The notes under the pieces are model-generated. The model was not told the origin of the DNA and made no database searches. It saw nothing but the letters and a program-made list of their open reading frames with translations. A stretch of 64,000 bases of DNA, from NCBI GenBank assembly GCA_019454045.1, contig SKCR01047750.1:23856-87855 (forward strand), written 5' to 3'. This document shows, piece by piece, positions 2,349 through 49,882 of the stretch; position 1 is the stretch's first letter, and each line of letters opens with the position of its first letter. Made by a program: the position numbers and the translations under genes. Origin of the DNA: Zanthoxylum bungeanum. Lineage: Eukaryota > Streptophyta > Magnoliopsida > Sapindales > Rutaceae.

Positions 2349-2349
2349 A

Positions 2350-8409: not shown

Positions 8410-8412
8410 GCC

Positions 8413-10961: not shown

Positions 10962-12367
10962 TGACCGATGCTTTCACACGCGTATAACGCAAGCACATGT
11001 ATCGTTCAAGTAGTATAAAAAGTATCGATCCCACGAGGACTTAATACCTAATCTATTAATTTTATGAGGTCAAATGATTACTAGTATCTAACAGGTTGAT
11101 TGATTGATTTGAAATGGTGAAGATTTTGAATTTAAAAACAAGTAAATAAAATTGCACGAAAGTAGGTTTAAGAAAATTCAATATTAGGAAACTATCTAGG
11201 GTTGTGAATCTTCCAATATCATTTTAAAGATCAAATGGTTATTTCATTTTTGTGTAATATATCGGTTTACTAACCTGAAACACTAAATTATGCGAAAGCC
11301 TCTGTCAACGGACAGACGTAAATACTCAGTATAACCTAATTGAACCATATGTCTATGTCAACCAAATTACCTGGATTCATTAAGTTTAAGTTCCAATTAT
11401 GGCTACCCCAGCCCGACAGGTATATGTCTATCATTTAAGGAAATCTATTAAAGGGTTATTTATCCTCAAGGAAGATCGTGGGCTATTAAGTCTAAGGCTG
11501 AAACCTAAAATTCCTTTGTCAAGTTTATTTTAGATTAACCAGATCAATCTTATTAGTGGCCAATTAACAAGACGCATTAAGCTTAAGACTTAATAAGTAA
11601 ACCTTTAAATTACCCAAACTATAAAATAACCCCTTATAAACTGGTGATATTAGAATTCATCACAACCCTAGATAACTAACTTAGTTACGACACATAACTA
11701 GGGCTAGTAAAAACTTAAAAATAAAAGACATAAATTACAATGCTGAAAAGTAAATGCGGTAAAATAAATACTGAAAAGTAAAATTATAATAAAATAAAAT
11801 GCTAAGGTAAAAGGATATACTTTTACTACTACTAATTTAGATATCTCCCTTAATATAATATATTAACTTGTGATTATATTACCAACCAGCCATATAAGGG
11901 GTAACCTGATTATGTCAAATTAAGTCCGACCAGCCATATAGGCGGTATCAAATTTGTCAATAAACCTGCCATATATAGGCAGTAAGAAAGTTTAATTACC
12001 AACCGACCAATCTGGCAGTACCCTTGTTTAGTCAGATTAAAACCAGTTTATAAATTATTACCAACCGGCCAATATAGCGGTATCCTCATTAAGTCAAATT
12101 TTAAATAGTGAATATATTATAATTAAGGGAGATTAATCTAAATAGCAATAGTAAAAGAATTACCTTTCACCCTAGCAGGGGGAAGTTACCTCCTCATGGT
12201 TGAATATTAAAAACTGTAAAAGTAAAGAAAGTAAATTACTATTACTATTACAGAATGTAATTAAAATTAATTACAAAACTGAAATTAAAATAAACTAGAT
12301 AGAAAACTCTCTATTTACATCAGAGAATTCAGAGAGGAAGGTACATCTGAAACTGAAATTTCGAGCT

Positions 12368-12379
12368 CTATTTATAGGC
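12368..12379 (-). promoter_or_regulatory. TATA box of element C 3' LTR
   Basis: On the minus strand this reads GCCTATAAATAG. The same box is at 33899-33910 in the 5' LTR and at 45637-45648 in the related solo LTR, so it is conserved within the family. Confidence 0.65.
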
Positions 12380-12478
12380 ATCAATAAGCCCAGCGCGTCG
12401 CGACGCGCACGTTTCTTCTTGCGTCGCGCCGCGCTGATGTGTCAATGCGTGATTGGTCCGTTTCAGATTCTTATCTGC

Positions 12479-12813
12479 CACGTGGCAATTTGGATAAATG
12501 AGTCAATAATTGAGCTGATGTGGCGATGACATGGCGAAAGTGATTATCTGCACCGTAGGATTACGACACGTGGCACGCTGTGATTGGCTGATAATGACGT
12601 GGCTGACATGTGGCAGGTTGACTCGGTCTTCTGCTGACATGGCGATGATGTGGCTGACACGCGTGATGACACGTGTCGACACTTGGCGATGGTGATTGTC
12701 GGCACCATAAGATGATGACACGTGGCACGGTACACGTTAGTAGATCGGCTGTGATTGTGACACGTGGCACGGCGCACGTTAGCAAAGTCAAACTTCTCAT
12801 ATTCTGACACGTG
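12479..12813 (-). promoter_or_regulatory. Cluster of six G-box/ABRE cores in element C 3' LTR
   Basis: The palindromic core CACGTG occurs at 12479, 12567, 12670, 12719, 12761 and 12808. Four are flanked as ACACGTGGC or CCACGTGGC, which is the ABRE/G-box form bound by plant bZIP and bHLH factors. In the transcription direction of C the cluster lies about 100-440 bp upstream of the TATA box, where a U3 enhancer would be expected. Binding is inference. Confidence 0.6.
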
Positions 12814-13031
12814 GACCCGGCGCACGTTAGGCGTCGCGACGCGCCAATTTACAAAAATGCCCTTTTGTGTTTTTTTCACTGTTTTGGCCCCAAATCACCT
12901 CCAGAATGTCCTGAAACTTTATTTATCTACAAATTAACACAAAACACATCATAATATTCACAAAACTCTAGAAATTATACAAAATATTAAGTTAAATGAG
13001 TGGGAAATAATGATATAATTACCACTCATCA

Positions 13032-13043
13032 CACCCCCAAACC
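13032..13043 (-). other. Polypurine tract of element C
   Basis: On the minus strand, GGTTTGGGGGTG directly precedes the 3' LTR. It is the expected plus-strand primer of a gypsy element. Confidence 0.8.
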
Positions 13044-14346: not shown

Positions 14347-15000
14347 TCAAAGGTTAAGATCCATATTAATCTGATGCCTCTTACCACGATCGTCCTCGGA
14401 CCAATTTATCTTTGAAATGATAGGGTCAATTTGTGGTTCATAGGCTAAGATTTGGTCAATTAGATATGGAGCAGTTCTGGCAGTGAAGAGAAGTTTTTTT
14501 AAAAGTTTTGACACGAACCCATTTCTCCGGGCATCATCAAGAAACACACAAAGAAAATCATAAAATCCTTCAACGTTGTACAGTCCAAGCGATTTCTGGA
14601 GTATGTTCAGGTTCACCCAAGATAACACTGTAAAAATTTCCTCCAATGTACCCAAGCCACCTGGCAAAGCAATAAAAGCATCAGCACGGTTAATCATTTC
14701 TACCAATCGTTCAGACATACCTGGCACGATCAGTTCCTCTCCATTTGATGGTCTAATAAGATTTGCTTCTGCCAAGGGTTTTGGGATGATTCCCAAAACG
14801 TGACTGCCTCCCTCCTGTACAGCTTTTGAAACGATCCCCATAAGTCCAAGATTGCCTCCGCCATATACTAAGTGCATATTCCTTGCAGCTAAGACTCGAC
14901 CCAATTCTTGTGTTGCTTCTATGTATTGTGGCTTAACACCAAAACTAGTACCGCAAAACACACAGATGTTTTCAACTCGTCTTCTTGAAGTGGTTTCCAT
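14347..15000 (-). CDS. LOG-like: LOG-family cytokinin riboside 5'-monophosphate phosphoribohydrolase, carried by element C
   Basis: The protein is 217 residues, the normal LOG length, with no stop or frameshift. LOG enzymes release active cytokinin base from the nucleotide in one step, in the cytosol and nucleus. The nucleotide-binding start ICVFCGTSFG is at residues 12-21, VYGGGNLGLMG at 45-55, HVLGIIPK at 67-74 and the family signature PGGLGTLEE at 113-121. The usual MHxRKxxM motif reads MSERLVEM (95-102): the arginine is kept and the lysine is lost. The C-terminus has an added tail, DRGK...DLN, shared with the second copy. The gene is intronless, whereas host LOG genes normally have several introns. 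It lies between integrase and the 3' LTR on the element's coding strand. The start is set by alignment with the copy at 27213-27860. Activity is not proven. Confidence 0.93.
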   Translation of the reverse strand: METTSRRRVENICVFCGTSFGVKPQYIEATQELGRVLAARNMHLVYGGGNLGLMGIVSKAVQEGGSHVLGIIPKPLAEANLIRPSNGEELIVPGMSERLVEMINRADAFIALPGGLGTLEEIFTVLSWVNLNILQKSLGLYNVEGFYDFLCVFLDDARRNGFVSKLLKKLLFTARTAPYLIDQILAYEPQIDPIISKINWSEDDRGKRHQINMDLNL

Positions 15001-15042: not shown

Positions 15043-15060
15043 TTTATAACACCTGAAAAG
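15043..15060 (-). promoter_or_regulatory. Conserved TATA-like / splice-acceptor-like block upstream of LOG (element C)
   Basis: On the minus strand CCCTTTTCAGGTGTTATAAA lies about 45 bp before the LOG start. The aligned block before the other LOG gene reads TTTTGCAGGTCCTATAAA. The pyrimidine run plus CAG could be a 3' splice site giving a spliced LOG mRNA, and TATAAATTCA could be a core promoter. The sequence alone cannot decide between them. Confidence 0.45.
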
Positions 15061-15420
15061 GGTGAGTAAAATAATAGCACTAGTACCTGCCAATCGGACT
15101 TGTGCTTCAATTACCCAACGAATGTCATTAGGAACACCATGGATCGTTAGTAATCTCATTTGTTCCAGGCGAGCTTTGTAAACTTTCATCAGAGATTTTT
15201 TAGGGAGATAAGGAAATTACTTGTGAAGATTTGCGAGAGCTTCTTCCATCGTAAAATGACTTTACCTGCAAAAATTAAACACACAAAAATAAAACACACC
15301 AGATCACAATATATACACAAATTTCATGGGTTGCCTCACTGCTAGCGCTAAGTTTAACATCATCAGCTAGATGTGACTTCTCGAATGTTAGGCTGGATCT
15401 AAAAGTGTGACACTTTCTTT
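15061..15420 (-). other. Non-coding interval between integrase and LOG in element C
   Basis: No ORF is supported. Near 15325-15375 it holds GGGTTGCCTCACTGCTAGCG, a post-integrase landmark that has a counterpart in element H near 28588-28650. A further U-rich CAG, a possible splice acceptor, lies near 15268 on the minus strand. Confidence 0.55.
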
Positions 15421-16680
15421 TTATCGCTCAAATGATTCTCCCCAGTAGTTCTTGACACGCTGACTGTTAACCTTGAATGTTTCGTTGGTGTTGGGATCCA
15501 GTAACTCAACAGCTCCATATGGAAAAACCTGAGTGATCACAAATGGACCTGACCACCTTGATTTCAACTTTCCAGGGAAAAGTTTCAACCGTGAATTGTA
15601 CAACAACACTTGCTGTCTTGGTTCCAATTGTATGTGCACTATTTTTTGATCATGCCATTTCTTGGTCTTTTCTTTGTACAATCTGGCATTCTCATAAGCC
15701 TATAAGCGAAATTCCTCCAATTTGTTGAGTTGGTGAAGTCGTTTCTCTCCTGCAGCTTGTGAATCAAGATTCAACTTCTTCAGTGCCCAGTACGCCTTAT
15801 GTTTAAGCTCAACTGGCAGATGACATGCTTTCCCAAACACCAATCGATATGGGAAAATACCAATGGGTGTCTTGTAAACTGTTCGATAGGCCCATAATGC
15901 GTCATCCAGTTTTGTTGACCAGTCCTTCCTTGTTGATCCAACAGTTCTCTCCAAGATTCTTTTGATTTCTCTGTTTGAAACTTCAACCTGTCCATTTGAC
16001 TGTGGATGATAAGCAGTGGCAACCTTGTGAGTAACTCCGTATTTGTATAGGAGTGCATCAAAATATCTGTTGCAGAAATGTGAGCCACCATCACTAATAA
16101 TTACCTGAGGTGCTCCGAACCGAGTGAAAATGTTCTTTTTCAAGAATTTGATCACCACTTTTGAATCATTGGATGGTAGTGCAATTGCTTCAACCCATTT
16201 GGAGACGTAGTCTACAGCAACCAGGATGTACAGGTTTCCGAATGATGGAACAAAGGGTCCCATGAAATCTATACCCCACACATCGAATATCTCAACTTCC
16301 AGAATGTTTTGCAATGGTCCTTCATTTCTTCTCGAAATATTCCCCATTCTCTGGCACCTATCACATTGAAGAGCAAACAAGTAAGCATCTTTAAAAAATA
16401 ATGGGCCAGAACAAACCTGATTGTAGGACTTTGGCTGCAATTTTGTTTCCGCTGAAGTGTCCGCCATATGGTGATGAATGACAATGCTGCAAAACACTGT
16501 TGACGTCCTCATGTTGAACACAACGCCTCAGTAATTGATTAGCACAACATTTGAACATGTACGGCTCATCCCAGACATAGTGCTTGACTTCTTTGAAGAA
16601 TTTCTTCCTTTGCTGAGTTTTCCATTCCAACGGCCATTTTCCTGATACAATGAAGTTGACATAGTCAGCATATCAATGGA
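15421..16680 (-). pseudogene. Element C integrase (frameshift and stop)
   Basis: This is a gypsy integrase read from high to low coordinates. The zinc-binding HSSPYGGHF and CDRCQRMG motifs are present, followed by the core with [15 protein letters not shown] and a glutamate in [16 protein letters not shown], which gives the D, D, E triad. The C-terminal part KSRWSGPFVITQVFPYGAVELLD is a GPF/Y-type module. A frame change separates the zinc domain from the core near 16400-16520, and an in-frame TAG lies near 15700, just before the C-terminal module. Confidence 0.9.
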
Positions 16681-16708
16681 CATCCTGTTGTTTCATGGCA
16701 AACATCTA

Positions 16709-18600
16709 TTAATCTGGAAAAGTTTCTTTGATTGTAAGTTCTTTTCCAGCTGTTTCTCCATTCTCAAGCCTCGATAGATGATCTGCCACTTGGTTCTCTG
16801 TCCATTTCCTGTCTCTGATCTCCACGTCAAATTCTTGCAGAAGAAGTATCCAACGGATCAATCTGGGTTTGGCATCTTTCTTCGTGATCAGATATTTGAT
16901 TGCAGAATGATCTACGTAGACCACCACTTTGGGACCCAGCAGATAGGAGCGAAATTTGTCAAAAGCATCCACAACTGTGAGCAACTCTTTTTCAGTGGTT
17001 GTGTAGTTGAGTTGAGCTTCAGTCAAATTTCTGCTAGAGTAGTAAATGGTGCTGAAAATCTTTGCTTTGCGTTGTCCTAAAACTGCACCTACAGCAAAAT
17101 CACTAGCATCGCACATCACCTCAAATGTAAGGGTCCAGTCTGGTGCTACAATGATGGGGGCAGAGACCAGCTTCTGTTTTAAGATCTCAAAAGCTTCATG
17201 GCATTCTTTGGTGAAGTTGAAAGACACATCTTTTTCCAGAAGATTGCATAGAGGTTTAGCAATCTTGTAAAAGTCTTTGATAAATCTCCTGTAAAAACCT
17301 GCATGTCCAAGAAAACTCTGAATCCCTTTGACTGATGTTGGTGGAGGTAATTTCTCAATTGTTTCGATCTTTGCTTTGTCTACCTCGATTCCCTTTTGTG
17401 AGATCTGATGTCCAAGAGCAACACCTTCTTGCACCATGAAGTGGCATTTCTCCAAATTGAGTACCAGGTTGGTATCTTCACATCTTTGTAACACTTGTTC
17501 CAAATTTTGCAAGTAGTGGTCAAAAGAGTCTCCAAACACAGAAAAATCATCCATGAATACCTCCATACTCTGCTCCAGCATGTCTGAGAAGATGGCCATC
17601 ATGCAACGCTGAAAAGTGGCAGAGGCATTACATAATCCAAATGGCATCCTACGGAAAGCAAAAGTACCATAGGGACATGTAAAGGTAGTTTTCTCCTGAT
17701 CTTCTGGTGCGATAGCAATCTGATTGTACCCTGAATATCCGTCCAGAAAACAATAGAACTCATGTCCCGCCAGTCTGTCCAGCATTTGATCAATGAATGG
17801 TAGCGGAAATGGTCATTTCTCGTGGCTTTGTTCAGCTTTCGGTAGTCCATGCATACTCTCCATCCAGTCACCGTTCTGGTTGGAATTAGCTCGTTCTTTT
17901 CATTTGTGACTACAATGATTCATTCTTTCTTTGGCACACACTGCATAGGACTCACCCAAGTGCTGTCTGAAATGGGGTAAATGATGCCAGCATCCAACCA
18001 TTTGATGATTTCTTTCTTCACGACTTCCTGCATGATTGGATTGAGTCTCTGTTGATGCTCCACTGTAGGTTTGTACTCATCGTTCATCAAGATCTTGTGC
18101 ATGCAAAATGATGGACTAATGGCTCGAATGTCTGCTATAGTCCACCCAATGGCTCTTTTGTGCTCTCGTAATAATCTCAGAAACTTTTCTTCCTGCTCCA
18201 ATGTTAGTGAAGAAAAAATAATAACAGGTAATTCAGAAGAGTTTCCAAGAAATGCATACCTGAGATGGCTCGGTAGTAAATTCAGCTCCAGCTGTGGTGG
18301 TTCTTCAATCGAAGGCTTGATTCGATCTTTCTTTGGCAGTTCCAGGCTTTCCATTTGTGGTGTCGCTTTGAATCGGAATGGTTTGTCAAGGTAGTTGATA
18401 CATTCCAGGATTTCAACATCTAGCTCGTTGTCAGTCATGTTGGTGATGCAAGCTTCAAGTTTTTCCGTGGGGGTTGTATCAGTATCCTGAACGATACCAT
18501 CAACAACATCAATTCTGAAACATTCTTCTTCCTTTTCATCGCTCGGGAATTTCATGGCTTTGAAAAAATTGAAAGTAACTTCTTGGTCCTGAACTTTCAT
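16709..18600 (-). pseudogene. Element C reverse transcriptase and RNase H
   Basis: The N-terminal RT part (to CVPKKE) runs 18600-17920 and ends at a TGA. The same frame then continues to about 17800, where a frameshift leads into the long frame 17785-16709. The catalytic FMDDFSVFG is near 17530-17560. RNase H begins around [14 protein letters not shown] and keeps TTTEKELL and [22 protein letters not shown] closes the domain. One nonsense codon and one frameshift make the enzyme inactive as read. Confidence 0.9.
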
Positions 18601-19305
18601 AGTTAGTTCTCATTTTTGTACATCAATCACAGTTCGTCATGTCGCCAAGAATGGTCTTCCAAGGATGATAGGTACATCTTTGTCTTCTTCCATGTCAATG
18701 ATAATGAAATCTGCTGGAAGAATGAGTTTATCGACTTTGACCAGCACATATTCAACAACACCTCTTGGAAATACAAGCGTTCGATCAGCAAGTTGTAGTG
18801 AGACTGTGGTAGGCATTGCTTCTATAATTTGCAGTTTCATGTAAATATAAAAAGGCATCAAATTAACACTTGCAGCTAAATCACATAAAGCCTTACCGAT
18901 GTAATGTTCTCCAATGGTGCATGGGACAGTAAAACTGCCAAGATCTTTCAACTTTGGGGGAATTTTCCTTTGAATGATGGCACTGCATTCTTCCATCAAT
19001 GCTACTGTCTCGTAATCTCCCAATCTCTGTTTTCGTGAAAGAATATCTTTCATGAATTTGACGTAGCTGGGCATTTCTTCTAAGGCTTCTGCGAATGGAA
19101 TGTTGATATGCAGCTTTTTGAACACCTCCAGGAATCGAGCAAACTGCTTGTCCAGTTTGATTTTCTGAAGTCGTTGTGGAAAAGGTGGAGGTGGAGTGAT
19201 CTGATCTTTTTCTTTTTCCTCCATATGTGGAACTGCATCTTTTGGAACTTCCTCAATTGTTGCCTTGATTCCAACATCTTTGTTGATTTCAGTACCGCTT
19301 TTCAA
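18601..19305 (-). pseudogene. Element C protease region
   Basis: The aspartic protease shows LCDLAASVNLMP, in which the catalytic aspartate is kept but the usual DLGAS glycine is alanine. Next come LQLADRTLVFPRGVVE and VPIILGRPFLAT. TGA codons follow at about 18637 and again before the RT frame. The Athila-like wording is clear. Confidence 0.85.
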
Positions 19306-20560
19306 GGTGATGGCTTGACATTGCTCCTTCCATCGGTTCCTTGGATTTGGTTATGTGCTGTTGGGAAGATTTCCTGGCGGTCTGTAACTCTGAGCATTGG
19401 CCAGTTGTCCAATTTGATTCTCCAGTGCTTTGATAGAAGCTGATTGGCTCTGAAAGATAGCATCATATGCTGCTTGTTGCTTTTTGAACATCTCTGCAAT
19501 CCATTCTTTCATTTCTGGTTCTTTTTCATGTTCATGGCCTTTGTTCTGTTGCTGGAATCTAGGTGGTGGATAGTTCTTTTGCCCTGAATTGTTGCCCCAT
19601 GAAAAATTCGGATGATTCCTCCACCCTGGGTTGTAGGTGTTGGAATATGGATTGTTCCCCTGTCTATTGAAATTGTTGACAAAATTCACCGTCTCTTCAA
19701 GTAAATTTGGTTCTGGTACTCCTCCATATGGTGAACTTGTGGATCCAGTGGTAAGAGTCTCCATGAATTTGCATATCTGATCCAGTTTGGCGTTGACTGC
19801 TGTATTGGCTCCAACTTCATAAATTCCTGCAATTCTTTGGATCATGCTCATTTCTGTTGGCCACAAGGAATTGTTGTTGGCCATTTCTTCGATTAGGTCC
19901 CATGCTTGATCTTCTCATTTTGCCATTAAATCTCCTCCAACAGCAGCATCGATTGTGGTTCTCATCAGTCCAGAAAGTCCATTATTGAAAGTTTGGACTT
20001 GAAGCCATTTTGGAATCTCATGGTGAGGACATTTTCGGAGAAAATCTTTGTACCTTTCCCAAGCTTCGTAGAGAGTTTTCGAGTCTTGTTGTACATAGGA
20101 TGTGATTTCATTCCTCAGCTTTCCAGTTCTGGCTGGTGGAAAGTACTTTGTAAGAAATTTGGTAGCTAAAGTGTTCCAAGTTGTGATGGAACCTGCTGGT
20201 AGTGAATGTAGCCAAGCTTTAGCTCTGTCTTTCAAGGAGTATGGAAAAAACACGCAGTCTCATTGCTTCTTCAGCTTCTCGGTTGTAATTAAAAGTGTCA
20301 CAAACTTCCAGGAAGTTGCTGATGTGGGTATTAGGATCTTCAGTTGCTTTTCCCCCAAACTGTACCGACTGCTGAATCATCTGAATGCATGATTTGATGT
20401 CACACGCATTTGCTGGTAAATGAGGAAGTACAATACAGGAAATGAAGCCGTCGACCACCGGAATGGTTCTGTCTCGAATGGGTATTGGTGGTGCAACCTC
20501 CAAAGGTTCAGGTTCCATGTTGATAATTTCTTCTTGGCCTTCTCGTCTTTCCCTTCTCAA
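19306..20560 (-). pseudogene. Element C gag (broken)
   Basis: The gag begins near 20560 with an acidic/basic leader and IPVVDGFIS, then shifts frame near 20220-20255 into FFPYSLKDRAKAWLHSLPAGSITTW, the Athila/gypsy capsid signature. A TGA lies after DLMAK (near 19915) and a TAA ends the frame at about 19351. A glutamine- and asparagine-rich tail follows the capsid. It would form the particle of the element, but at least three lesions are present. Confidence 0.87.
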
Positions 20561-20732
20561 CTGTCTGATGGTTTTTCAATTTGTGGGTCAAGCGGTCGGA
20601 GTTCAAAGCTTCTTATTCGTCTCATGTAGTTTCTGATAACCTGAAACACAAGAAAACAAAAACAATAAGTAAAAAGAAATTAGATACAAGTAACGTATCT
20701 AACCCCAAAACTAATAGTGAAAGATAAATAAG

Positions 20733-20756: not shown

Positions 20757-20847
20757 TGACCGGTGCTTTCACACACGTATAATGCAAGCGCACGTATCGT
20801 TCAAGTAGTATAAAAAGTATCGATCCCACGAGGACTTAATACCTAAT
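20757..20847 (-). repeat. Element C 5' LTR, terminal piece left of H
   Basis: These 91 bp match the start of the 3' LTR (10962-11052). The rest of the LTR lies beyond element H, at 32569-34591. The last five bases, CTAAT, are the duplicated target of H. Confidence 0.92.
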
Positions 20848-23800
20848 TGTAGACAACAGAAATCGGCGACGCTGTTCTAGGCTCAGGGCCTAGTTGGGAG
20901 TACGAAATAACATGGAGTCGCCACCCGGTGTGAACCGGGAAAATGATTTAAGGCCGCACTCACCCCTCGCAAGGGAAGACCTCAAACCGTTGGGTTCGGA
21001 ATGGTCCCTTACTTATGTCGTTTGTAATGAATGGATTTGTGCAATATTAATCAAAACTACTTAACATACATGTACAATGATAACTCAACCTAATTCACAT
21101 TCATAAAAATAAATCTTACATTTAAATTCACATGCTTCGAAAGTAAGTCTTTATTAACATACAACACTTAAAATACATATACAAAAATAAACATGTGGGC
21201 CAGTAACTTGGCCACTGCTAATGTAGGACCTCGCATACCCGATTAGACGTATCTGACGTCAACCGAATACGCCGCGTCCGTAACAGTAAAGTAACAAAGG
21301 GTGCCCTCAGGTCTTACCTTTTGGTCGCTGTCCGGGAGTGCGTTCCGCGGTGCCGGAAGGGTTATCATTCCACTGTTTTCAATGTCCGCTATTTCCGCTG
21401 TTTTGTCCGGGTTCGCCGTTTTCACTGTTTCGCTCGAATTCTTATTCTCTCTCTTGGGTTATCTTGGATCATTTTGGGCCAATTTGCGTGTGCATGGTTA
21501 AGGTTTCAGGGGTTGTTTGGGCAGTGTTTTGTGACAATTTTTGGAGGATTTTGGGGCTGTTTCTTATGCATGCAAGTGGTCGGTTTTAGAGTTAGTAGTC
21601 TAGTTCTCGGCAGTGAATGGAAGGTGATGAGTGTTGCCGTGGCTGGGGTGGTTGGTCTCGGCATTGGCTAGGGTTTCATGCAAGGAGGTGCTGGTGTGAG
21701 GGTGTGCTCGGCATGTCAGTGGGTGAATGGCTCACGGCTAGGGTTTAGGGCATGATAGTGGATGAGGTGTGGCCTCGGCAGTTGGCAGTGTGGTGGAGTG
21801 TGCAGTGAGGGTTCGACCAGGGTAATTTTGATGGCTAAGGGCATGAAGCAAAGGTCAGTTTGGTGATGGTTTGTGCTCGGCATTCAGGGTTCATGTATGG
21901 TTCTCGGCCAGGGGGTTATTAACATGTATGGAGGGCAGTGGGCATGGGGGGTTGTCCACGTGAATTGGTCTCGGCATTGGTCAGTTTGGTGATGGAGCAG
22001 TGTTCGGTCAGTGAGCTGTGATAGAGGATGATCAGGCTGTCCCTGGGAGATGCCGAGAGCTCCTTGTGCTGTGGTGATCCCTGGTTGCCGAGCTATTTGG
22101 TTCATTACAGTGGCCGAATCATCCTTGGCCGAGCAGAAGATGATGAGCTCAGAAGGTGCAGATGTTGTTGATGACAATGATCATGGATGAAGGGCGTGAA
22201 GAGAGTGATCTTGATGAGGTGTGGCCAGTTGTGTCGTGATTGATGGAGATCAAGGGTTCCAGAATTGATGGTGGTGGTGTCGTGGCTAGGGCTGATCAGT
22301 GCCGAGAAGAAGAGATCAAGGGGTATGTGAAGTTGATCATGATGAAGATCGATGATTCTCCTTGATGAAGGGCCGAGAAGAAGATTAGGGTTGCCGTGAA
22401 AATGATGATAGGAGATGATGAGAGTGGTGTACAGTGGGTGTTAATGGCATGAGGTATTGAAATGGCTTGTTCGGCAGTTGATGATTATGTCTTGGTGAGT
22501 TGATGAAGATGAATGTGATGGTGCCGAGAGGTTCACGTGATTATGGCCAGTGAATATGCATGGGCTTCAGGGTAAAGGTCAGTGGCGTTGGTGATCAAGA
22601 TGAAGGTTCAGTGGGTGGATGTTTTGATGACCATGCCGAGAAGGGGTGCAGTTCGTGAGGATGCCCAGTGATGAAAGGGTTCCCCTTGCATGAATGATTG
22701 ATCAATGATTAATGGTGAGCTGGGTGCATGATTGAAGGAGAAGAATGAGGCGTTTTAGGCTAAAAACCAAAAAATATTCGGTGGAATTGATTGAGGTTTG
22801 ACAATGATGGATTTGGTTTTTTCGTTTGTTGTGTGGAGTTGGTGGTGATCAAAAATGGTGATGGGAGGGAAGTTTGTTGGTTTGTTAATTGTCAAAATGG
22901 GCGGCTTGCATGTGAAAGGTTGGTGAGGGGTTCACGTGGGGAAGAAGACAATTGGTGTGGGGGAATTGTTTGGTACGTGGGGCATGGTGCATTTTGAGTT
23001 TGTTATTGTATTTTTGTTTGAATTATTTGTTTATTTTTGTTAAAGTTGTTATTTAATTGGTTGGTAATTTTTAATAATTTAATTTAATTCAAATTAATTT
23101 AATTGGTTGGTAGATTTTAATTTTGCATGGAAGTTAAAGGGTCACAAGCAAGGAAAATTAGAGAGAGAGAGAATATGTGTGAGAAAGAGCGAGGAAAAGG
23201 TTCCGAGCGAATGATGATTTTGAAACGAAAATGCGACGACAAAACCCGAAGCAAAACGAGCGAATAAAATCCACCAAAATGTCAATTCCTGACCATGGGC
23301 TTCAGGGTAAAGGTCAGTGGCGTTGGTGATCAAGATGAAGGTTCAGTGGGTGGATGTTTTGATGACCATGCCGAGAAGGGGTGCAGTTCGTGAGGATGCC
23401 CAGTGATGAAAGGGTTCCCCTTGCATGAATGATTGATCAATGATTAATGGTGAGCTGGGTGCATGATTGAAGGAGAAGAATGAGACGTTTTAGGCTAAAA
23501 ACCAAAAAATATTCGGTGGAATTGATTGAGGTTTGACAATGATGGATTTGGTTTTTTCGTTTGTTGTGTGGAGTTGGTGGTGATCAAAAATGGTGATGGG
23601 AGGGAAGTTTGTTGGTTTGTTAATTGTCAAAATGGGCGGCTTGCATGTGAAAGGTTGGTGAGGGGTTCACGTGGGGAAGAAGACATTGGTGTGGGGGAAT
23701 TGTTTGGTACGTGGGGCATGGTGCATTTTGAGTTTGTTATTGTATTTTTGTTTGAATTATTTGTTTTTTTGTTAAAGTTGTTATTTAATTGGTTGGTAAT

Positions 23801-24126
23801 TTTTAATAATTTAATTTAATTCAAATTAATTTAATTGGTTGGTAGATTTTAATTTTGCATGGAAGTTAAAGGGTCACAAGCAAGGAAAATAGAGAGAGAG
23901 AGAATATGTGTGAGAAAGAGCGAGGAAAAGGTTCCGAGCGAATGATGATTTTGAAACGAAAATGCGACGACAAAACCCGAAGCAAAACGAGCGAATAAAA
24001 TCCACCAAAATGTCAATTCCTGACTTTCCCTTTCCGACGACCGCTTTCCGCAACTTCCGTAACTAAAAAGTAGTGCCTCCATACGAGGCTCATCATTGGG
24101 CTGGTATGCAAAATGCAATGCCTACA
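20848..24126 (-). repeat. Element H 3' LTR with internal duplication
   Basis: It is 3279 bp, against 2547 bp for the partner LTR. The excess is a tandem duplication of about 735 bp. Apart from that the two LTRs are nearly identical. Open frames inside it appear in both LTRs and have no recognisable product. Confidence 0.93.
22561..24024. repeat. 735-bp tandem duplication inside the H 3' LTR
   Basis: Copy one runs 22561-23295 and copy two 23296-24024. Both begin TGGGCTTCAGGGTAAAGG. The partner LTR has one copy (31734-32465). The copies differ by small indels only (GACAATTGG against GACATTGG near 22948 and 23683, and a shortened T-rich run near 23765). Confidence 0.92.
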
Positions 24127-24142
24127 GTCGCCCCCACTTTGA
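24127..24142 (-). other. Polypurine tract of element H
   Basis: On the minus strand TCAAAGTGGGGGCGAC abuts the 3' LTR start TGTAGGCATTG. Its place fixes the orientation of H. Confidence 0.8.
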
Positions 24143-24254
24143 TGGGATTTGTTCAGTGTGTGCCAGTGACAATCCTATCAAAGTTCGTGCAATGCATTTT
24201 TACTTACCTGGCTCGCCAGCTGCCACCTGGCTTACCTGCTGCTTCAAACTGAGT

Positions 24255-25165
24255 TGATGATGCAGTGGACCTCGATCCTGGGACGCATCCCAATACCTGC
24301 AATTGACAAAATGGACCTCGGCCCGGGGACGCATCCCCAAAATGGAATATATGATACAGTGGGTCTACGACCCTGGGACGCATCCCAATAATTGCAACCG
24401 ACAACGGGGGTCTCGACCCTGGGACGCATCCCAATACCGCTGACAAAATGGGCCTCAGCCCGGGGACGCATCCCCAAAATGGAATATATGATGCAGTGGG
24501 TCTACGACCATGGGACGCATCCCAATAACTGCAACCGACAACGGGGGCCTCGACCCTGGGACGCATCCCAATACCGCTGGCAAAATGGGCCTCGGCCCGG
24601 GGACGCATCCCCAAAATGGAATATATGATGCAGTGGGTCTACGACCCTAGGACGCATCCCAATAACTGCAACCGACAACGGGGGCCTCGACCCTGGGACG
24701 CATCCCAATACCGCTGACAAAATGGGCCTCGGCCCGGGGACGCATCCCCAAAATGGAATATATGATGCAGTGGGTCAACGACCCTAGGACTCATCCCAAT
24801 AACTGCAACCGACAACGGGGGCCTCGACCCTGGGACGCATCCCAATACCGCTGACAAAATGGGCCTCGCCCGGGGACGCATCCCCAAAATGGAATATATG
24901 ATGCAGTGGGTCAACGACCCTAGGACTCATCCCAATAACTGCAACCGACAACGGGGGCCTCGACCCTGGGACGCATCCCAATACCGCTGACAAAATGGGC
25001 CTCGGCCCGGGGACGCATCCCCAAAATGGAATATATGATGCAGTGGGTCTACGACCCTGGGACGCATCCCAATAACTGCAACCGACAACGGGGGCCTCGA
25101 CCCTGGGATGCATCCCAATACCGCTGGCAAAATGGGCCTCGGCCCGGGGACGCATCCCCAAAATA
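24255..25165. repeat. 137-bp higher-order minisatellite in element H
   Basis: About 6.7 units of 136-137 bp are present; ACAACGGGG recurs at 24401, 24538, 24675, 24812, 24948 and 25085. Each unit is built from three related subunits of about 42, 48 and 47 bp. Each subunit contains the near-palindrome GGGACGCATCCC preceded by a GGGYCTC-type word. Long open frames across it repeat the same peptide and are by-products of the repeat. Confidence 0.92.
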
Positions 25166-25249
25166 CTGTTGATAATTGAGAATTGAGTTGGTCATGCCGT
25201 ACCTGGCAGAACTGATCTGATACAGAATTGTGGGTTTCGTCTCCATGGG

Positions 25250-25805
25250 TCATGTTCCCGAATCTGATGTGAAGGTCTTGTTCCCCTTTTGAGTTGAGGG
25301 TCTTGTTCCCTGAACTGTACTGAATGTGGGCTTTATTCCCGAACTGTATTGGATGTAGGCTTTATTCCCGAACTGTACCGAATGTGGGCTTTATTCCATG
25401 AATTGAGCTAAATGCAGGCTTTCTTCCTGAACTGTACTGAATGTGGGCTTTATTCCCGTATTGAGCTGAATGCAGGCTTTCTTCCTGAACTGTACTGAAT
25501 GTGGGCTTTCTTCCGGAACTGTACTGAATGTGGGCTTTATTCCCGTATTGAGCTGAATGCAGGCTTTCTTCCTGAACTGAACTGGATGCAGGCTTTATTC
25601 CTGAACTGTACTGAATGTGGGCTTTATTCCCGAGCTGAACTGAATATAGGCTTTCTTCCTGGACTGTGTTGAATATGGGCTTTATTCCCCTGATTGTAAT
25701 GAATGTGGGCTTTATTCCCCAACTGTGTTGACTGTGTGGCTTTGTTCCTGAATTGTATTGACTGTGGGCTTTGTTCCCTAATCTGAGCTAATTGTGTGGC
25801 TTTAG
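25250..25805. repeat. 29-bp minisatellite in element H
   Basis: There are about 19 degenerate units of about 29 bp, with a core near TGTGGGCTTTATTCCCGAAC. Variants alternate between TTTATTCCCG and TTTCTTCCTG forms. The GGGCTT core relates it to the neighbouring arrays. Confidence 0.88.
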
Positions 25806-25985
25806 CCCCTCAAGCTGATACTGATGAAGTGGGTTACAACCCTGGGACGCATCCCTCAAAACTGCTGATACTGATGAAGTGGGTTACAACCCTGGGACGC
25901 ATCCCCAAAACTGCTGATACTGATGAAGTGGGTTACAACCCTGGGACGCATCCCCAAAAATGTTACTGATGCTTATGCTGAATGT
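25806..25985. repeat. 49-bp minisatellite in element H
   Basis: Three units of about 49 bp are followed by a diverged fourth. Each contains CTGATGAAGTGGGTTACAAC and CCTGGGACGCATCC, so it joins the GGGACGCATCCC word of the 137-bp array to the CTGATACTGATG word of the next array. Confidence 0.88.
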
Positions 25986-26240
25986 GGGCCTCAACCCTGG
26001 GACTCATCCCCAAACAGGTGCTGATGTGGGCCTCGCCCCCAAGCTAATACTGATGTGGGCCTCGCCCCCGACTGATACTGATGTGGGCCTCGCCCCCTAC
26101 TGATACTGATGTGGGTCTCGCCCCCTACTGATACTGATGTGGGTCTCGCCCCAAACTGATACTGATGTGGGCCTCGCCCCAAACTGATATGGGCCTCGCC
26201 CCAAACTGATACTGATGTGGGGCTTCGCCCCCAAGCTGAT
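25986..26240. repeat. 28-bp minisatellite in element H
   Basis: There are about eight units of 28-30 bp with a core CTGATACTGATGTGGGCCTC followed by GCCCC. One unit is shortened (CTGATATGGGCCTC). It is the fourth adjacent array in this element. Confidence 0.88.
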
Positions 26241-27185
26241 ATGATATTCTACCTCACACATTACACCATCTCTCACGAGATAATCTTTGATAGATAGACA
26301 TATTTTTGTCCTCAACGAATGCTTTCGCGTCGAAACCGAAGAACCTTCAAAGTACTCGACATACTCAAGTCCAATCATCTGAATGGGTGATCTGAGCTAG
26401 ACTCCATGTGTGTGTGTGCTAAGGCTCTTTCGCAGCTTATTCCTTAAGTAAGCCAACTTGGTGATTTCGTTTCAGAGAATCGAACCAATGGGTCTAACCA
26501 ACCTGGATGTCTTGATCACATTCTGTGATTACTTCAGCATACTCAACATGATATGATTTTCATCTTTTTCTTTTGTCTCTTTCTTTTCATTTTCTTTTCT
26601 CTTTTTTCTTCTCTTTTTTTTTCTTTTTTTTTCTTTTCTTTTTCTGACACACCTACCCTTTAAGGTAGCATTTCTCCTCATGGTGGTCTTAATACTCGCC
26701 CATGGGTAGCTTCACGCTTATCGGTTATAGGCGGTCTATTTTTTTTCTTTCATATTTTCTTTTCAGAGACTTTTTCTTTATTTCCAACCATATCATATAT
26801 CATAGCATCGGTAAACCAGGGTGGACACCCAGGCAAACGGTCATTCACTAATACATCATCTCTTCAACTAGTCACCTCGATAACTACTCAGGTTTCTACA
26901 GCTAGGATTCTGTAATCAAGTGCTCGTGAGTCTAACTGAGATCAATCCATTCAGGATACTGGAAGAGAGCGTGTCTCGCACTTATCGTTTCTAGGGTTTC
27001 CCCCTACAACATTCAATGTCATCACCGGACATATGTCTAACTATCAAAGACTTCTCTCACTCAATATTTTTTTCTTTTCATTCATTTTTTTTCATTTTTT
27101 TCTCTTTTTTTTTTACTCATTTTTTTTCTTTTTTTTTTCTTTTTTTTTTCATCAATTAAAATAAAACATAAACTTCCAAATAGGC
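26241..27185 (-). other. Non-coding 3' region of element H with polypyrimidine tracts
   Basis: No gene is seen. Two long T/C-rich runs (about 26565-26645 and 27058-27150, + strand) are separated by unique-looking sequence. On the transcribed minus strand they are purine runs. The second lies just downstream of the LOG stop codon. Confidence 0.6.
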
Positions 27186-27212
27186 CTTGGAATACCTGGT
27201 CAGCAGGGCACA

Positions 27213-27860
27213 TCACCGATTCAGATCAATGTCCAGTCTGCGCTTCTTGCCACGATCACCATCTGTCCATTCCAATTTGGAGAGGATAGGGTCGAGCTTC
27301 GGTTCAAAAGCTAGGATCTGGTCAATCAACTCTTCGGCCTTTGTCGCAGTCAGGAAAATATCTTCCACAGATTTGGTGACGAACTCATGTCTCTTGGCTT
27401 CCGCGAGAAATACAAACAGAAAATCGAAGAAGTGCTCAATATTAAGCAACCCGATGGGTTTCCGATGAATGTTTAAATGCGCCCATGATGCTACGGTGAA
27501 TATTTCTTCAAGGGTACCAAGTCCACCTGGTAACGCAATAAACGCATCCGCAGTATTTATCATTTCATGGAGTCGTTCAGACATACCTGATACGATGCGT
27601 TCATCTCCATTTGTTGGTCCAATTTCGTCCGCCAAAGGTCTTGGGATGATTCCCAAAACATGACCGCCCCTTTCCTGAACGGCTTTTGAAATGATTCCCA
27701 TTATCCCAAGATTGCCACCGCCATATACTAGGTGCATGTTCTTCTCAGCTATGACTCGCCCCAATTCCTTTGCAGCCTCAATGAATTCTGGCTTATTACC
27801 AGTGTTGGATCCACAGAAAACACAAATTTGCTTAACTCGCTGTTGTGAGGTTGCTTCCAT
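27213..27860 (-). CDS. LOG-like: LOG-family cytokinin riboside 5'-monophosphate phosphoribohydrolase, carried by element H
   Basis: The protein is 215 residues and uninterrupted, about 65% identical by hand alignment to the LOG in element C, with one two-residue gap. ICVFCGSNTG is at 12-21, VYGGGNLGIMG at 45-55, MSERLHEM at 93-100 and PGGLGTLEE at 111-119. The tail is GDRGKKRR...DLN. The start at 27860 is chosen because it aligns with the start of the other copy; an in-frame ATG at 27962 would add 34 residues that read through the conserved upstream block. It is the only intact coding region of H, on the element's coding strand and downstream of the pol remnant. No intron is present. It should convert cytokinin nucleotides to free bases if expressed; lysine of the MHxRKxxM motif is absent, so activity needs proof. 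Confidence 0.93.
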   Translation of the reverse strand: MEATSQQRVKQICVFCGSNTGNKPEFIEAAKELGRVIAEKNMHLVYGGGNLGIMGIISKAVQERGGHVLGIIPRPLADEIGPTNGDERIVSGMSERLHEMINTADAFIALPGGLGTLEEIFTVASWAHLNIHRKPIGLLNIEHFFDFLFVFLAEAKRHEFVTKSVEDIFLTATKAEELIDQILAFEPKLDPILSKLEWTDGDRGKKRRLDIDLNR

Positions 27861-27920
27861 TTTTTTTTCTCTTTTACTTTGGATATATGTCTGATCGTGT
27901 TGAGGAGAGCAATGACGAGC

Positions 27921-27941
27921 TGAATTTATAGGACCTGCAAA
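27921..27941 (-). promoter_or_regulatory. Conserved TATA-like / splice-acceptor-like block upstream of LOG (element H)
   Basis: On the minus strand TTTTGCAGGTCCTATAAA lies about 65-80 bp before the LOG start. It aligns with the block upstream of the LOG in C (TATAAATTCA followed by CTCRTCATT in both). Either reading, core promoter or 3' splice site, would give LOG an mRNA of its own. Confidence 0.45.
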
Positions 27942-27979
27942 AGAGGTGAACAATAATTGCAATAACGATGGTTAGTTAA

Positions 27980-28325
27980 ACCACAAAAGGAGTCGTCATA
28001 AGTCAAAAAGGTTACTGGATCCTGTCTGCGAAAACAACGAGAGAAATCGTGAGATGTCAAAAAGTTGTGGAATCGTTCCATGAAAATAACAGAAAATAAC
28101 AAAGGAGATCGTGATATGTCAAAAAGCTGTGGATTCTTTCCACGAAAATAACAGAAAATACCAAAAGAAGTCCTAAAATGTCAAAAAGTTGTGGATCCCT
28201 TCCACCTCAACATGTCATGAAAGGTCACAAAAGTTATAGATTCTGTCTACAAAAATTCCAAAACAAGTCACGAAAGGTCAAAAAGTCTGGATCATACTTA
28301 CGAAAATAACAGAAAATAACAAAGC
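27980..28325. repeat. About 57-bp degenerate tandem repeat upstream of LOG in H
   Basis: There are about six degenerate units, each with a GTCAAAAAG word and, in most, a GAAAATAACAGAAAATAAC word. Unit lengths range from about 45 to 62 bp. No comparable array is seen upstream of the LOG in element C. Confidence 0.8.
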
Positions 28326-28985
28326 CAAAGCAATAATTAAGGTAAAGGAATTGTGTACTCAATACGTTGCTCGCTTGGTATAAATTCATTAAGGTGCGTC
28401 TCATGAATTCTTTCCTTACTCTGCCACCACTAATGAATTAGTTCTCATTCTTGTGATTGCCCAAACACCATTCCATCTGTCTTAACATGCTCCGCCTTTG
28501 TTTTTGCCTACAAAAATAACACACAAAATTAAAAACTCAACAACATGTATACACAAAACATGAAAACAGAAATCGCAACAAAGTGCACTGGTTGCCTCCC
28601 TGTTAGCACTAAATTCATCGTCTTCAGCCAGACATGACCGAAATCCTTCCGTCAAGGTGGCTTCATCGCTGTCTTTAGTGCTTTTGCCGCTTTTTAATTT
28701 TTGATGTTTTCTTTTTTTTTCTTTAAACCTGCAAATACAAAACAAAAAAATAAAGGCATGTGCATGTACGTATGCAAGAGTAGAGATACTCTCTTTTCGT
28801 GATGGCTTGGCTCCTCATGTGCTCGTTGGCGCCATGTGTCTTTGGCCGCCCCCTGCGGGTTCTCTTTTTGAAATCTGTAAAAACAACACACAAAACAAGA
28901 ATGCAAGTTACGTGTATGGATGGATGAATTCCCTATCCCGTTGGGTTAGGCCTTCCGCCAATTTCCTTAGTGACTGCTCACTTCT
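28326..28985 (-). other. Post-pol non-coding interval of element H
   Basis: No ORF is supported. Near 28588-28650 it contains GGTTGCCTCCCTGTTAGCAC and a following GACATGACC, the counterpart of the post-integrase landmark of element C. Several U-rich TAG/CAG acceptor-like words occur on the minus strand (near 28508 and 28730). Confidence 0.55.
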
Positions 28986-29290
28986 TTATTCCCAGCAAAG
29001 TGCAACTTCAATCTGCTTACGTCGACCAACTCGGTGAACTCCCAAATCTGGTAATCTCAATGCCTTGTTTCTCAATCTTCTGTCTTTTCTGCTGACTTTT
29101 TTTTCTGAGAATTCTCCGTGTTCCAGATACCTCTGAATATTATGATACCAAGGCTTCCCGTCATCGACTTCCACATCCAATATCCTTTCTGTCTCATACA
29201 ATGGTTTGTTTTCCGTTGTCAGCACAGGTGGTCACATCACCAATTTCTCCGGATTTTCCCAAGTTGGAGAATTATCTGTTTCTGATAGGG
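28986..29290 (-). pseudogene. Element H pol remnant (RNase H-integrase linker)
   Basis: The frame contains DGKPWYHNIQRYLEHGEF followed by SRKDRRLRNKALRL. Ogre/Tat-type pol proteins have PWYxDIxxYLxxGEYP and a DRRTLRRLA segment between RNase H and integrase, which this matches. The reading continues upstream (ETDNSPTWENPEKLVM) across a TGA near 29232-29240. The catalytic domains on both sides are gone. Confidence 0.7.
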
Positions 29291-29295
29291 GCAAT

Positions 29296-29493
29296 CTATG
29301 AGGAAGTAGGCTCTGTCTTTGAAGGTTTCCCAATGGTCTTTTGATTATGGTTGCACAAGTCTCTGTTATTGGCTGTATAGGGCACGGTCAAACTGGTCAC
29401 ATCATTGTTCAGGACTTGCAACTGCTCAAAAATCTCGGCTACCTTGGCTTCCAACTGATTTAGACGGGATTCTTCGTTGACCGACTCACTCAT
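29296..29493 (-). pseudogene. Element H gag-like N-terminal remnant
   Basis: A 65-residue ORF, the first after the primer site, begins MSESVNEESRLNQLEAKVAE. The heptad-like leucine spacing suggests a short coiled coil. It runs straight into the pol remnant, so capsid, protease and RT have been deleted. I do not recognise a specific family; the position suggests the start of gag. Confidence 0.45.
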
Positions 29494-30000
29494 ACTGGTT
29501 GACGATTCTTTGACGATTCTTTCTTCTTTCCCAACCTAACGGGAGTCTATGATGGCTTTTACGATGCAAATGGTTAACATGATGCATGTATGCATGTAAT
29601 GTGTGCAATGCAAATAAACAAGCTCATAAAAGAATTTACACTAATTGGCCCGTTATCATTTTAAAATATTCAATCACACTATTACGCAGTGCAAACTTCT
29701 CCCAGTTGAAAATGGCCCAACAGGTTAACACTTTTGCGATAACATGGCTAAATAACTTCAAATAATAAAAGGCACAAACACAAACTGACCCATCGACATT
29801 TTAGAAATTTTGGCCTAATTGTCAAAAGGACATGAACTTGTCCCGGTTTAAATGGCCCAACGAGTTCACATCTTTTGACAAAGAGTCCAACTAAATCCAA
29901 ATGACAACGGTCCAAAACACAAGCAAAAACACAGTAGTCATGATTAATTAAAACACAAATCACAAACATTACAAAACATTATTTCGGGGCCGATTCTCTA
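29494..30000 (-). other. Leader of element H
   Basis: About 500 bp between the primer site and the first ORF. No gene is seen. AATGGCCCAACNNGTTNACA recurs (near 29712 and 29849, + strand), giving a weak internal duplication. Confidence 0.55.
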
Positions 30001-30018
30001 TCCCCAGTGGAGTCGCCA
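30001..30018 (-). other. Primer binding site of element H
   Basis: On the minus strand TGGCGACTCCACTGGGGA begins three bases after the 5' LTR end. It starts with TGG as required for pairing with a tRNA CCA end. I associate this type of site with the tRNA-Arg primer of Ogre/Tat elements, from memory. Confidence 0.65.
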
Positions 30019-30021
30019 GAC

Positions 30022-32568
30022 TGTAGACAACAGAAATCGGCGACGCTGTTCTAGGCTCAGGGCCTAGTTGGGAGTACGAAATAACATGGAGTCGCCACCC
30101 GGTGTGAACCGGGAAAATGATTTAAGGCCGCACTCACCCCTCGCAAGGGAAGACCTCAAACCGTTGGGTTCGGAATGGTCCCTTACTTATGTCGTTTGTA
30201 ATGAATGGATTTGTGCAATATTAATCAAAACTACTTAACATACATGTACAATGATAACTCAACCTAATTCACATTCATAAAAATAAATCTTACATTTAAA
30301 TTCACATGCTTCGAAAGTAAGTCTTTATTAACATACAACACTTAAAATACATATACAAAAATAAACATGTGGGCCAGTAAATTGGCCACTGCTAATGTAG
30401 GACCTCGCATACCCGATTAGACGTATCTGACGTCAACCGAATACGCCGCGTCCGTAACAGTAAAGTAACAAAGGGTGCCCTCAGGTCTTACCTTTTGGTC
30501 GCTGTCCGGGAGTGCGTTCCGCGGTGCCGGAAGGGTTATCATTCCATTGTTTTCAATGTCCGTTGTTTCCGCTGTTTTGTCCGGGTTCGTCGTTTTCACT
30601 GTTTCGCTCGAATTCTTATTCTCTCTCTTGGGTTATCTTGGATCATTTTAGGCCAATTTGCGTGTGCATGGTTAAGGTTTCAGGGGTTGTTTGGGCAGTG
30701 TTTTGTGACAATTTTTGGAGGATTTTGGGGCTGTTTCTTATGCTTGCAAGTGGTCGGTTTTAGAGTTAGTAGTCTAGTTCTCGGCAGTGAATGGAAGGTG
30801 CTGAGTGTTGCCGTGGCTGGGGTGGTTGGTCTCGGCATTGGCTAGGGTTTCATGCAAGGAGGTGCTGGTGTGAGGGTGTGCTCGGCATGTCAGTGGGTGA
30901 ATGGCTCACGGCTAGGGTTTAGGGCATGATAGTGGATGAGGTGTGGCCTCGGCAGTTGGCAGTGTGGTGGAGTGTGCAGTGAGGGTTCGACCAGGGTAAT
31001 TTTGATGGCTAAGGGCATGAAGCAAAGGTCAGTTTGGTGATGGTTTGTGCTCGGCATTCAGGGTTCATGTATGGTTCTCGGCCAGGGGGTTATTAACATG
31101 TATGGAGGGCAGTGGGCATGGGGGGTTGTCCACGTGAATTGGTCTCGGCATTGGTCAGTTTGGTGATGGAGCAGTGTTCGGTCAGTGAGCTGTGATAGAG
31201 GATGATCAGGCTGTCCCTGGGAGATGCCGAGAGCTCCTTGTGCTGTGGTGATCCCTGGTTGCCGAGCTGTTTGGTTCATTACAGTGGCCGAATCATCCTT
31301 GGCCGAGCAGAAGATGATGAGCTCAGAAGGTGCAGATGTTGTTGATGACAATGATCATGGATGAAGGGCGTGAAGAGAGTGATCTTGATGAGGTGTGGCC
31401 AGTTGTGTCGTGATTGATGGAGATCAAGGGTTCCAGAATTGATGGTGGTGGTGTCGTGGCTAGGGCTGATCAGTGCCGAGAAGAAGAGATCAAGGGGTAT
31501 GTGAAGTTGATCATGATGAAGATCGATGATTCTCCTTGATGAAGGGCCGAGAAGAAGATTAGGGTTGCTGTGAAAATGATGATAGGAGATGATGAGAGTG
31601 GTGTACAGTGGGTGTTAATGGCATGAGGTATTGAAATGGCTTGTTCGGCAGTTGATGATTATGTCTTGGTGAGTTGATGAAGATGAAGGTGATGGTGCCG
31701 AGAGGTTCACGTGATTATGGCCAGTGAATATGCATGGGCTTCAGGGTAAAGGTCAGTGGCGTTGGTGATCAAGATGAAGGTTCAGTGGGTGGATGTTTTG
31801 ATGACCATGCCGAGAAGGGGTGCAGTTCGTGAGGATGCCCAGTGATGAAAGGGTTCCCCTTGCATGAATGATTGATCAATGATTAATGGTGAGCTGGGTG
31901 CATGATTGAAGGAGAAGAATGAGGCGTTTTAGGCTAAAAACCAAAAAATATTCGGTGGAATTGATTGAGGTTTGACAATGATGGATTTGGTTTTTTCGTT
32001 TGTTGTGTGGAGTTGGTGGTGATCAAAAATGGTGATGGGAGGGAAGTTTGTTGGTTTGTTAATTTTCAAAATGGGCGGCTTGCATGTGAAAGGTTGGTGA
32101 GGGGTTCACGTGGGGAAGAAGACAATTGGTGTGGGGGAATTGTTTGGTACGTGGGGCTTGGTGCATTTTGAGTTTGTTATTGTATTTTTGTTTGAATTAT
32201 TTGTTTATTTTTGTTAAAGTTGTTATTTAATTGGTTGGTAATTTTTAATAATTTAATTTAATTCAAATTAATTTAATTGGTTGGTAGATTTTAATTTTGC
32301 ATGGAAGTTAAAGGGTCACAAGCAAGGAAAATTAGAGAGAGAGAATATGTGTGAGAAAGAGCGAGGAAAAGGTTCCGAGCGAATGATGATTTTGAAACGA
32401 AAATGCGACGACAAAACCCGAAGCAAAACGAGCGAATAAAATCCACCAAAATGTCAATTCCTGACTTTCCCTTTCCGACGACCGCTTTCCGCAACTTCCG
32501 TAACTAAAAAGTAGTGCCTCCATACGAGGCTCATCATTGGGCTGGTATGCAAAAATGCAATGCCTACA
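30022..32568 (-). repeat. Element H 5' LTR
   Basis: It is 2547 bp and nearly identical to 20848-24126 outside the duplicated block. It ends next to the duplicated target CTAAT (32569-32573). Confidence 0.93.
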
Positions 32569-49881: not shown

Positions 49882-49882
49882 T

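Follow-up and report, generated by a model that had tools for sequence, protein, structure and literature searches.

A LOG-family gene in the window, by which we mean the whole 64,000-nt stretch of Zanthoxylum bungeanum DNA analysed here (contig SKCR01047750.1), has very probably been captured by a Ty3/gypsy retrotransposon and retained by it as an accessory gene, as judged from comparisons of the element with its relatives in the same genome and of its gene with LOG genes from the host, Arabidopsis and bacteria. The gene belongs to an element that we call C, with the following parts:

10962..13031, minus strand: 3' LTR of element C, from self-comparison and junctions
13032..13043, minus strand: polypurine tract, GGTTTGGGGGTG, adjoining the 3' LTR
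14347..15000, minus strand: LOG-family ORF of element C, 217 aa, with PGGLGTLEE and the tail RGKRHQINMDLNL
15421..20575, minus strand: gag-pol region, with gag PF03732, RT PF00078, RNase H and integrase PF00665
15700..16521, minus strand: integrase core reading frame, PF00665
20732..20756, minus strand: primer-binding-site region, TAGCGCCGTTTCCGGGGA, tRNA-Asp-like, adjoining the 5' LTR
20757..20847, minus strand: inner piece of the 5' LTR, which is split by the insertion of element B
32569..34591, minus strand: outer piece of the 5' LTR, starting with CTAAT, the target-site duplication of element B

The initial annotation had placed an uninterrupted LOG ORF between the integrase and the 3' LTR of an element with identified LTRs, primer site and purine tract, and this description is borne out. 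The LTRs, a primer-site-like stretch and the purine tract were located by self-comparison and junction reading, and the ORF, which runs from its ATG to its stop codon (15000..14347, minus strand) through 217 codons in an unbroken frame, sits between the integrase (PF00665) and the 3' LTR on the gag-pol strand. It matches PF03641 (Lysine_decarbox/LOG; Pfam, E 1.3e-32), with the domain spanning the whole protein, and TIGR00730 (NCBIfam, E 2.7e-47), and its closest solved relative is Arabidopsis At2g37210 (E 2.5e-53). Its score against the CtkRMPhLog equivalog, the NCBIfam cytokinin-enzyme model, is 104.2 bits, below the cut-off of 300 bits. We rejected a chance ORF because of the PF03641, TIGR00730 and At2g37210 matches.

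Pfam domains in element C follow the order gag, RT, RNase H and integrase, all on the minus strand. Its LTRs have TG..CA ends and differ at 99 of 2,058 ungapped sites (K 0.050), and the flanks CATCA and CATCG form a target-site duplication that matches in four of five bases. Since gag-pol is broken by frame changes and in-frame stops, C is not an intact, autonomous element. Its primer site is putatively a match to tRNA-Asp, with two differences, and the term Athila-like as applied to C is based on gene order and this presumed primer-site identity. A C-family LTR-like stretch, about 74% identical to part of the LTR of C, is also present at 45124-47022, inside a minus-strand Copia relative (40111-50804). 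The latter is the reversed relative of a Copia-type element at 491-10284, whose LTR-like repeats (491-2349 and 8424-10284) are about 94% identical and whose frames are in several pieces.

A second LOG-bearing element, B, whose LOG ORF the initial annotation of this finding did not mention, is nested in the 5' LTR of C with a perfect CTAAT target-site duplication:

20848..32568, minus strand: element B
20848..24126, minus strand: 3' LTR of element B, containing a tandem duplication of 731-735 nt
24184..26245, no strand assigned: tandem-repeat arrays with 137-, 29- and 28-nt units
27213..27860, minus strand: LOG-family ORF of element B, 215 aa from the ATG, the frame being open from 27971
28986..29231, minus strand: short pol-like remnant, with no Pfam match
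29999..30018, minus strand: primer-binding-site region, TGGCGACTCCACTGGGGA, tRNA-Arg-like
30022..32568, minus strand: 5' LTR of element B, from self-comparison

The LTRs of B have TG..CA ends and, once one copy of the duplication is set aside, show 15 differences in 2,543 ungapped sites (K 0.0059). The tandem duplication (22559-24024) is found in the left LTR only; the right LTR does not have it and is otherwise 99.4% identical. We presume that the primer site is tRNA-Arg-like and that the pol-like remnant is of Tat type, a combination that would suit a Tat/Ogre-related element. No gag or pol Pfam domain was found in the frames of B that were searched, 6 of the 87 listed, and among 150 scored places in the genome that match the 81-aa remnant, the longest open frame is 231 aa. 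Of the 149 other remnant places, at least 18 are followed on the same strand, some 1.2-1.7 kb downstream, by a B-type LOG, and at least five further ones by the B-type LOG 24-mer. Short tandem arrays are described for the Retand lineage in the Retand paper. The LOG ORFs of B and C both lie wholly within LTR-bounded elements, and we therefore rejected a host gene spanning the LTR, one of two outcomes that the initial annotation had named as fatal to its claim; the host LOG loci are separate and split by introns.

The other such outcome, namely that further copies of C lack LOG and no second insertion carries it, is contradicted by the many LOG-carrying copies in the window's own assembly (3.956 Gb). 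A 26-mer from the C-type LOG has 10,344 exact matches there and 30,925 matches with at most three mismatches, while its backwards control has none in either search; exact matches are thus 33% of near matches. A B-type LOG 24-mer gave 300 matches (control 0), and a 26-mer from a host LOG exon gave two. Because this host 26-mer occurs twice and several host LOG places form equal-scoring pairs, the assembly may hold two haplotypes, in which case the counts per haplotype would be about half. The C-type 26-mer is present in 24 of the 28 C loci, in 6 of 10 further C-type loci and in none of 10 B loci, and both it and the B-type 24-mer are absent from the 18 host loci. In protein searches of the genome, the best 150 of 69,936 first-look candidates for the C LOG are all at least 88% identical to it, and the best 150 of 68,587 for the B LOG at least 90%. 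A scan of viral contigs found no relative.

As for the question raised by the initial annotation, whether several copies carry LOG in the same place, 27 other copies, all chosen for containing LOG, were fetched with their flanks. A match to the integrase C-terminus lies upstream in 24 of the 27 and a C-type LTR start downstream in 24, both being present in 21. At least nine of the fetched copies whose flank was long enough had no integrase core at E 1e-5. Nine loci with a C-type LOG (L009, L012, L013, L015, L018, L022, L023, L026 and L028) have an integrase core that is missing or too diverged, and their upstream flank matches at most the last ~41 aa of the C integrase frame, at 55-61% identity; they may represent a further non-autonomous LOG family. 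We also searched from the integrase side. An integrase 26-mer has 2,579 matches in the genome (control 0), and in that part of the contigs for which the list of LOG matches is complete, eight of 33 integrase places have the exact LOG 26-mer 2,054-2,091 nt downstream on the same strand, against 0.17 expected within 4 kb. It was absent at that distance from the other 25, and with no more than about one near match in three being exact, the true proportion is at least 8 of 33. We rejected a single odd insertion, as LOG copies occur genome-wide, many of them in the same position.

The LOG ORFs of B and C are identical at 140 of 215 residues (65%), and their likeness reaches beyond the coding sequence, beginning about 30 nt ahead of a 3' splice-acceptor-like site and ending at the stop codon:

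15053..15082, minus strand: 3' splice-acceptor-like stretch of C, pyrimidine-rich, ending in TTTTCAG followed by G, ahead of the LOG ATG
27935..27964 (approximate), minus strand: matching 3' splice-acceptor-like stretch of B, ending in CTCTTTTGCAG followed by G, ahead of the LOG ATG

The acceptor AG is kept in 26 of 28 C-type copies as well as in B. In addition, four of the 10 further C-type loci (L041, L048, L049 and L050) share with B a segment of about 400 nt that lies upstream of its LOG (28259-28668) and that C itself does not have. These shared features bear on whether B and C captured different host LOG genes independently, as might be supposed from their primer sites and contents, which look unlike (the lineages being presumed). 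We consider two such captures highly improbable, since B and C have in common the acceptor as well as the altered pocket and basic DLN tail described below, some other C-type elements share the ~400 nt with B, and the retro-LOGs, as we call the LOG proteins of these elements, form one clade apart from the sampled host LOGs (IQ-TREE, 98/94).

The host LOG loci of the same genome are split at several exon borders and the retro-LOGs are intronless, as the initial annotation had expected; a 50-aa query from the last exon set the two groups apart, scoring 49.9-86 bits at 29 host-type places and at most 40.8 bits at the other 121. These data support the carriage of an intronless LOG-family gene in the env position of a Ty3/gypsy element. 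In a FastTree phylogeny, the 32 retro-LOG sequences form one clade (0.936) and the 17 host and Arabidopsis sequences another (0.986). When bacterial LOGs were added (79 of 80 bacterial loci), a long-branch Pediococcus sequence joined the retro-LOG clade (0.953), and the grouping of plants with retro-LOGs, including this sequence, had a support of 0.443. IQ-TREE, applied to 54 sequences with 28 of those 79 bacterial loci and 10 of the 32 retro-LOGs, recovered the retro-LOGs (98/94) and the plants (99/98), and grouped 14 plant and 10 retro-LOG sequences with one long-branch bacterial sequence out of 30 (95/98); a topology joining plants and retro-LOGs without the Pediococcus sequence was not rejected (p 0.251). 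Host sequences L054-L056 were left out of both trees with bacteria, and L063 was too short for any tree; exon pieces that overlap a border have left L054-L056 with incorrect residues at the PGG motif and L039-L040 with S in place of P.

We read these trees as suggesting one old capture, probably of a plant-type LOG gene. A bacterial donor would also account for the missing introns, and bacterial LOGs, with L109 at the top, are up to 46% identical to the retro-LOG, that of Pseudomonas at 45% against 44% for Arabidopsis LOG3. The LOG of Pediococcus cellicola (L141:301-858) resembles the retro-LOGs at two of their three altered pocket positions, where it has S and T, but keeps the Lys; the likeness may reflect convergence or a long-branch effect. 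Such a donor would find room in the low FastTree support, but the IQ-TREE grouping of all 14 plant and 10 retro-LOG sequences with a single long-branch bacterium of 30 argues against it, and we judge it improbable. A plant-type gene, taken up once, is the origin that we prefer.

Comparisons among copies indicate that the gene has been under constraint in those tested. Between the B and C LOGs, dS is 1.58, near saturation, and dN 0.223, giving a ratio of 0.14 with a bootstrap upper bound of 0.22. Among the 28 C-type copies (378 pairs, whose values are not independent of one another), the medians are 0.161 for dS, 0.036 for dN and 0.21 for dN/dS, with a maximum of 0.90. At seven loci with an integrase, dN/dS is 0.12 for the integrase (20 pairs, gapped matches excluded) and 0.23 for LOG (21 pairs), and that of the LOG tail (0.30, 181 pairs) is no lower than that of the remainder of LOG. 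The window's own C copy may be drifting, to judge from its dN/dS of 0.19-0.78 against the 27 others and its departures at positions 134 and 137, which are nearly invariant among copies. Stop codons, read by eye in the best-scoring copies of unmatched ages, interrupt 28 of 150 LOGs of the C type, 37 of 150 of the B type and 94 of 141 integrases; for the C-type LOG against the integrase, the difference in these same age-unmatched lists has p 5e-17.

These data can be set against the view that LOG is a functionless passenger that hitch-hikes with the elements and looks conserved merely because the copies are young. The LTR divergences in the window are indeed small (K 0.050 for C and 0.006 for B), implying a short time since insertion, and the open frame of the single copy C is unsurprising on its own. 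The surprise is the conservation across copies: youth does not explain a 65% identity at near-saturated dS with dN of only 0.22, the median dN/dS of 0.21, the fewer stops in LOG than in integrase among the best-scoring copies, or the retention of the tail and the splice-site-like stretch. We thus regard a mere passenger as very unlikely, and retention of LOG as an accessory gene as the better account.

What the retained protein does is less certain, and here the active site is informative. In CgLOG, Arg99 and Glu122 have been proposed as catalytic residues and Met96, His97, Lys100, Glu125 and Trp129 as the prenyl site, and replacing the AMP-binding residues, Lys100 being listed as one of them, by alanine almost fully abolished activity (PMC4979012). 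The retro-LOGs carry the PGGxGTxxE motif with the catalytic Arg and Glu: the Met96, Trp129 and Glu122 positions are kept in 32 of 32 aligned retro-LOGs and Arg99 in 31, with two B-type sequences showing R for a motif Gly (L031) and X for the catalytic Arg (L034). On the other hand, His97, Lys100 and Glu125 of the prenyl/adenine pocket (CgLOG numbering) are replaced in all 32, with S for His97, L for Lys100, and T (13) or I (19) for Glu125. A second, overlapping set of 29 retro-LOGs has L (27) or M (2) at the Lys100 position, and C for the catalytic Arg in one. All 17 host and Arabidopsis sequences have H, K and E at the three positions, and the 81 bacterial LOG sequences have K in 81, H in 79 and E in 80.

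The designation of the element's gene as cytokinin-activating is thus doubtful. If the retro-LOGs were ordinary cytokinin-activating enzymes, free cytokinin could keep host cells dividing or meristematic and so favour passage through the germ line, and their LOG fold family, their nearly invariant catalytic residues and their nearest solved sequence, Arabidopsis LOG3, would fit this idea. However, it has to contend with the replacement of three pocket residues that do not vary among the plant sequences, one of them a Lys found in every bacterial sequence and listed among residues whose change to alanine nearly kills activity (PMC4979012), and we consider it rather unlikely. Because the hormone-binding pocket is changed in the copies examined, the retro-LOG protein probably does a different job from cytokinin activation.

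The C-terminus is a further point of difference. It is rich in R and K and continues into INLDLNL in the C type or LDIDLN in the B type. Among L001-L050 there are 48 non-host loci, and tails were read in 44 of these (all but L012, L023, L035 and L046), two of the 44 being those of elements B and C in the window; DLN occurs in 42 of the 44 and LDLNL in 29. No DLN tail is present in the nine host loci with readable C-termini, among the host sequences L040 having SLDLK. EAR patterns, according to PMC6283911, are LxLxL or DLNxxP. The retro-LOG tails match such a pattern, the B-type LDIDLN being a variant that is strictly neither; motifs of this EAR-like kind are short and often encountered. A structure model made from 14 close sequences was unusable (mean pLDDT 42.6).

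Taking these observations together, we propose that a plant-type LOG was captured once, long ago and without introns, by a Ty3/gypsy retrotransposon, and that purifying selection has since maintained it as an accessory gene, placed where env would be, both in the gag-pol family (C type, with near matches at about 31,000 places) and in the non-autonomous B-type family, in which we recognised no other gene. A spliced subgenomic RNA may be the template for translation of the retro-LOG, which would still bind, and probably hydrolyse, a substrate of the nucleoside 5'-monophosphate type, though not, or not mainly, N6-prenyl-AMP; its tail might direct it to the nucleus and recruit TOPLESS-type co-repressors, and it could help the element against the host. 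These steps on function are tentative and, in our estimate, less likely than not. Bolder, and unlikely, is the idea that the retro-LOGs have neofunctionalised into a class of nuclear proteins that process nucleotides; they would have lost the prenyl pocket, gained a basic, EAR-like tail, and come to act on a non-cytokinin nucleotide signal while docking co-repressors; candidate signals are a TIR-type immune nucleotide or the particle's nucleotide pool. If this were true, a hormone enzyme, rebuilt and carried as an accessory gene, would serve a retroelement in countering silencing or immunity of the host, and the B family would consist of mobile elements with a retro-LOG as their only product.

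To our knowledge, the roles of the extra ORFs of plant retrotransposons are mostly unknown. One of them is now seen to be an enzyme-family gene with thousands of relatives, constraint in the tested copies, kept catalytic residues and a rewritten specificity pocket, and the role of accessory genes in plant retroelements becomes testable with one purified protein. Annotation may also be misled: because they match LOG models, retro-LOG ORFs could pass for cytokinin genes in gene counts.

The initial annotation knew of no described retrotransposon family carrying LOG, which does not hold: Gypsy consensuses with a YgdH (LOG) domain are in print for Citrus sinensis and C. clementina, and one for Populus trichocarpa appears with a filter off, in the account that PMC9289625 gives of them (citing Steinbauerova et al. 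2011). The LOG-in-Gypsy kind is, by that account, already known. Like the elements described here, those of Citrus and Populus have the LOG-family domain as an extra domain in a Gypsy-type element; however, the domain only is reported, and our comparison with them is by description rather than by sequence. Within that account, we found no mention of copy number or scale, of the splice site, the pocket or the tail, or of a non-autonomous LOG family. Our literature search on LOG in retrotransposons, in which most papers were judged by their listing, recognised no other report. A Phalaenopsis Gypsy element with a captured 2-ODD (AlkB-like) gene, as summarised in PMC9289625, likewise keeps a host-type enzyme gene as an extra ORF over several rounds of replication, but the enzyme is a different one, with RNA demethylase activity shown in vitro, and the element resembles Ogre/Tat. 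The env-like 3' ORFs of the Athila lineage, as described in PMC7264820 and PMC6317226, resemble the LOG of C in being sense ORFs between pol and the 3' LTR with the same gene order, but encode an env-like or ORF-1 protein, whereas that of C is an enzyme-family gene. Finally, Arabidopsis LOG3 and LOG8, which are cytokinin riboside 5'-monophosphate phosphoribohydrolases, have the fold family, the PGGxGTxxE motif and the catalytic Arg and Glu in common with the retro-LOGs, which differ from them in being intronless, in the replacement of the pocket His, Lys and Glu, and in their basic C-terminal DLN tail.
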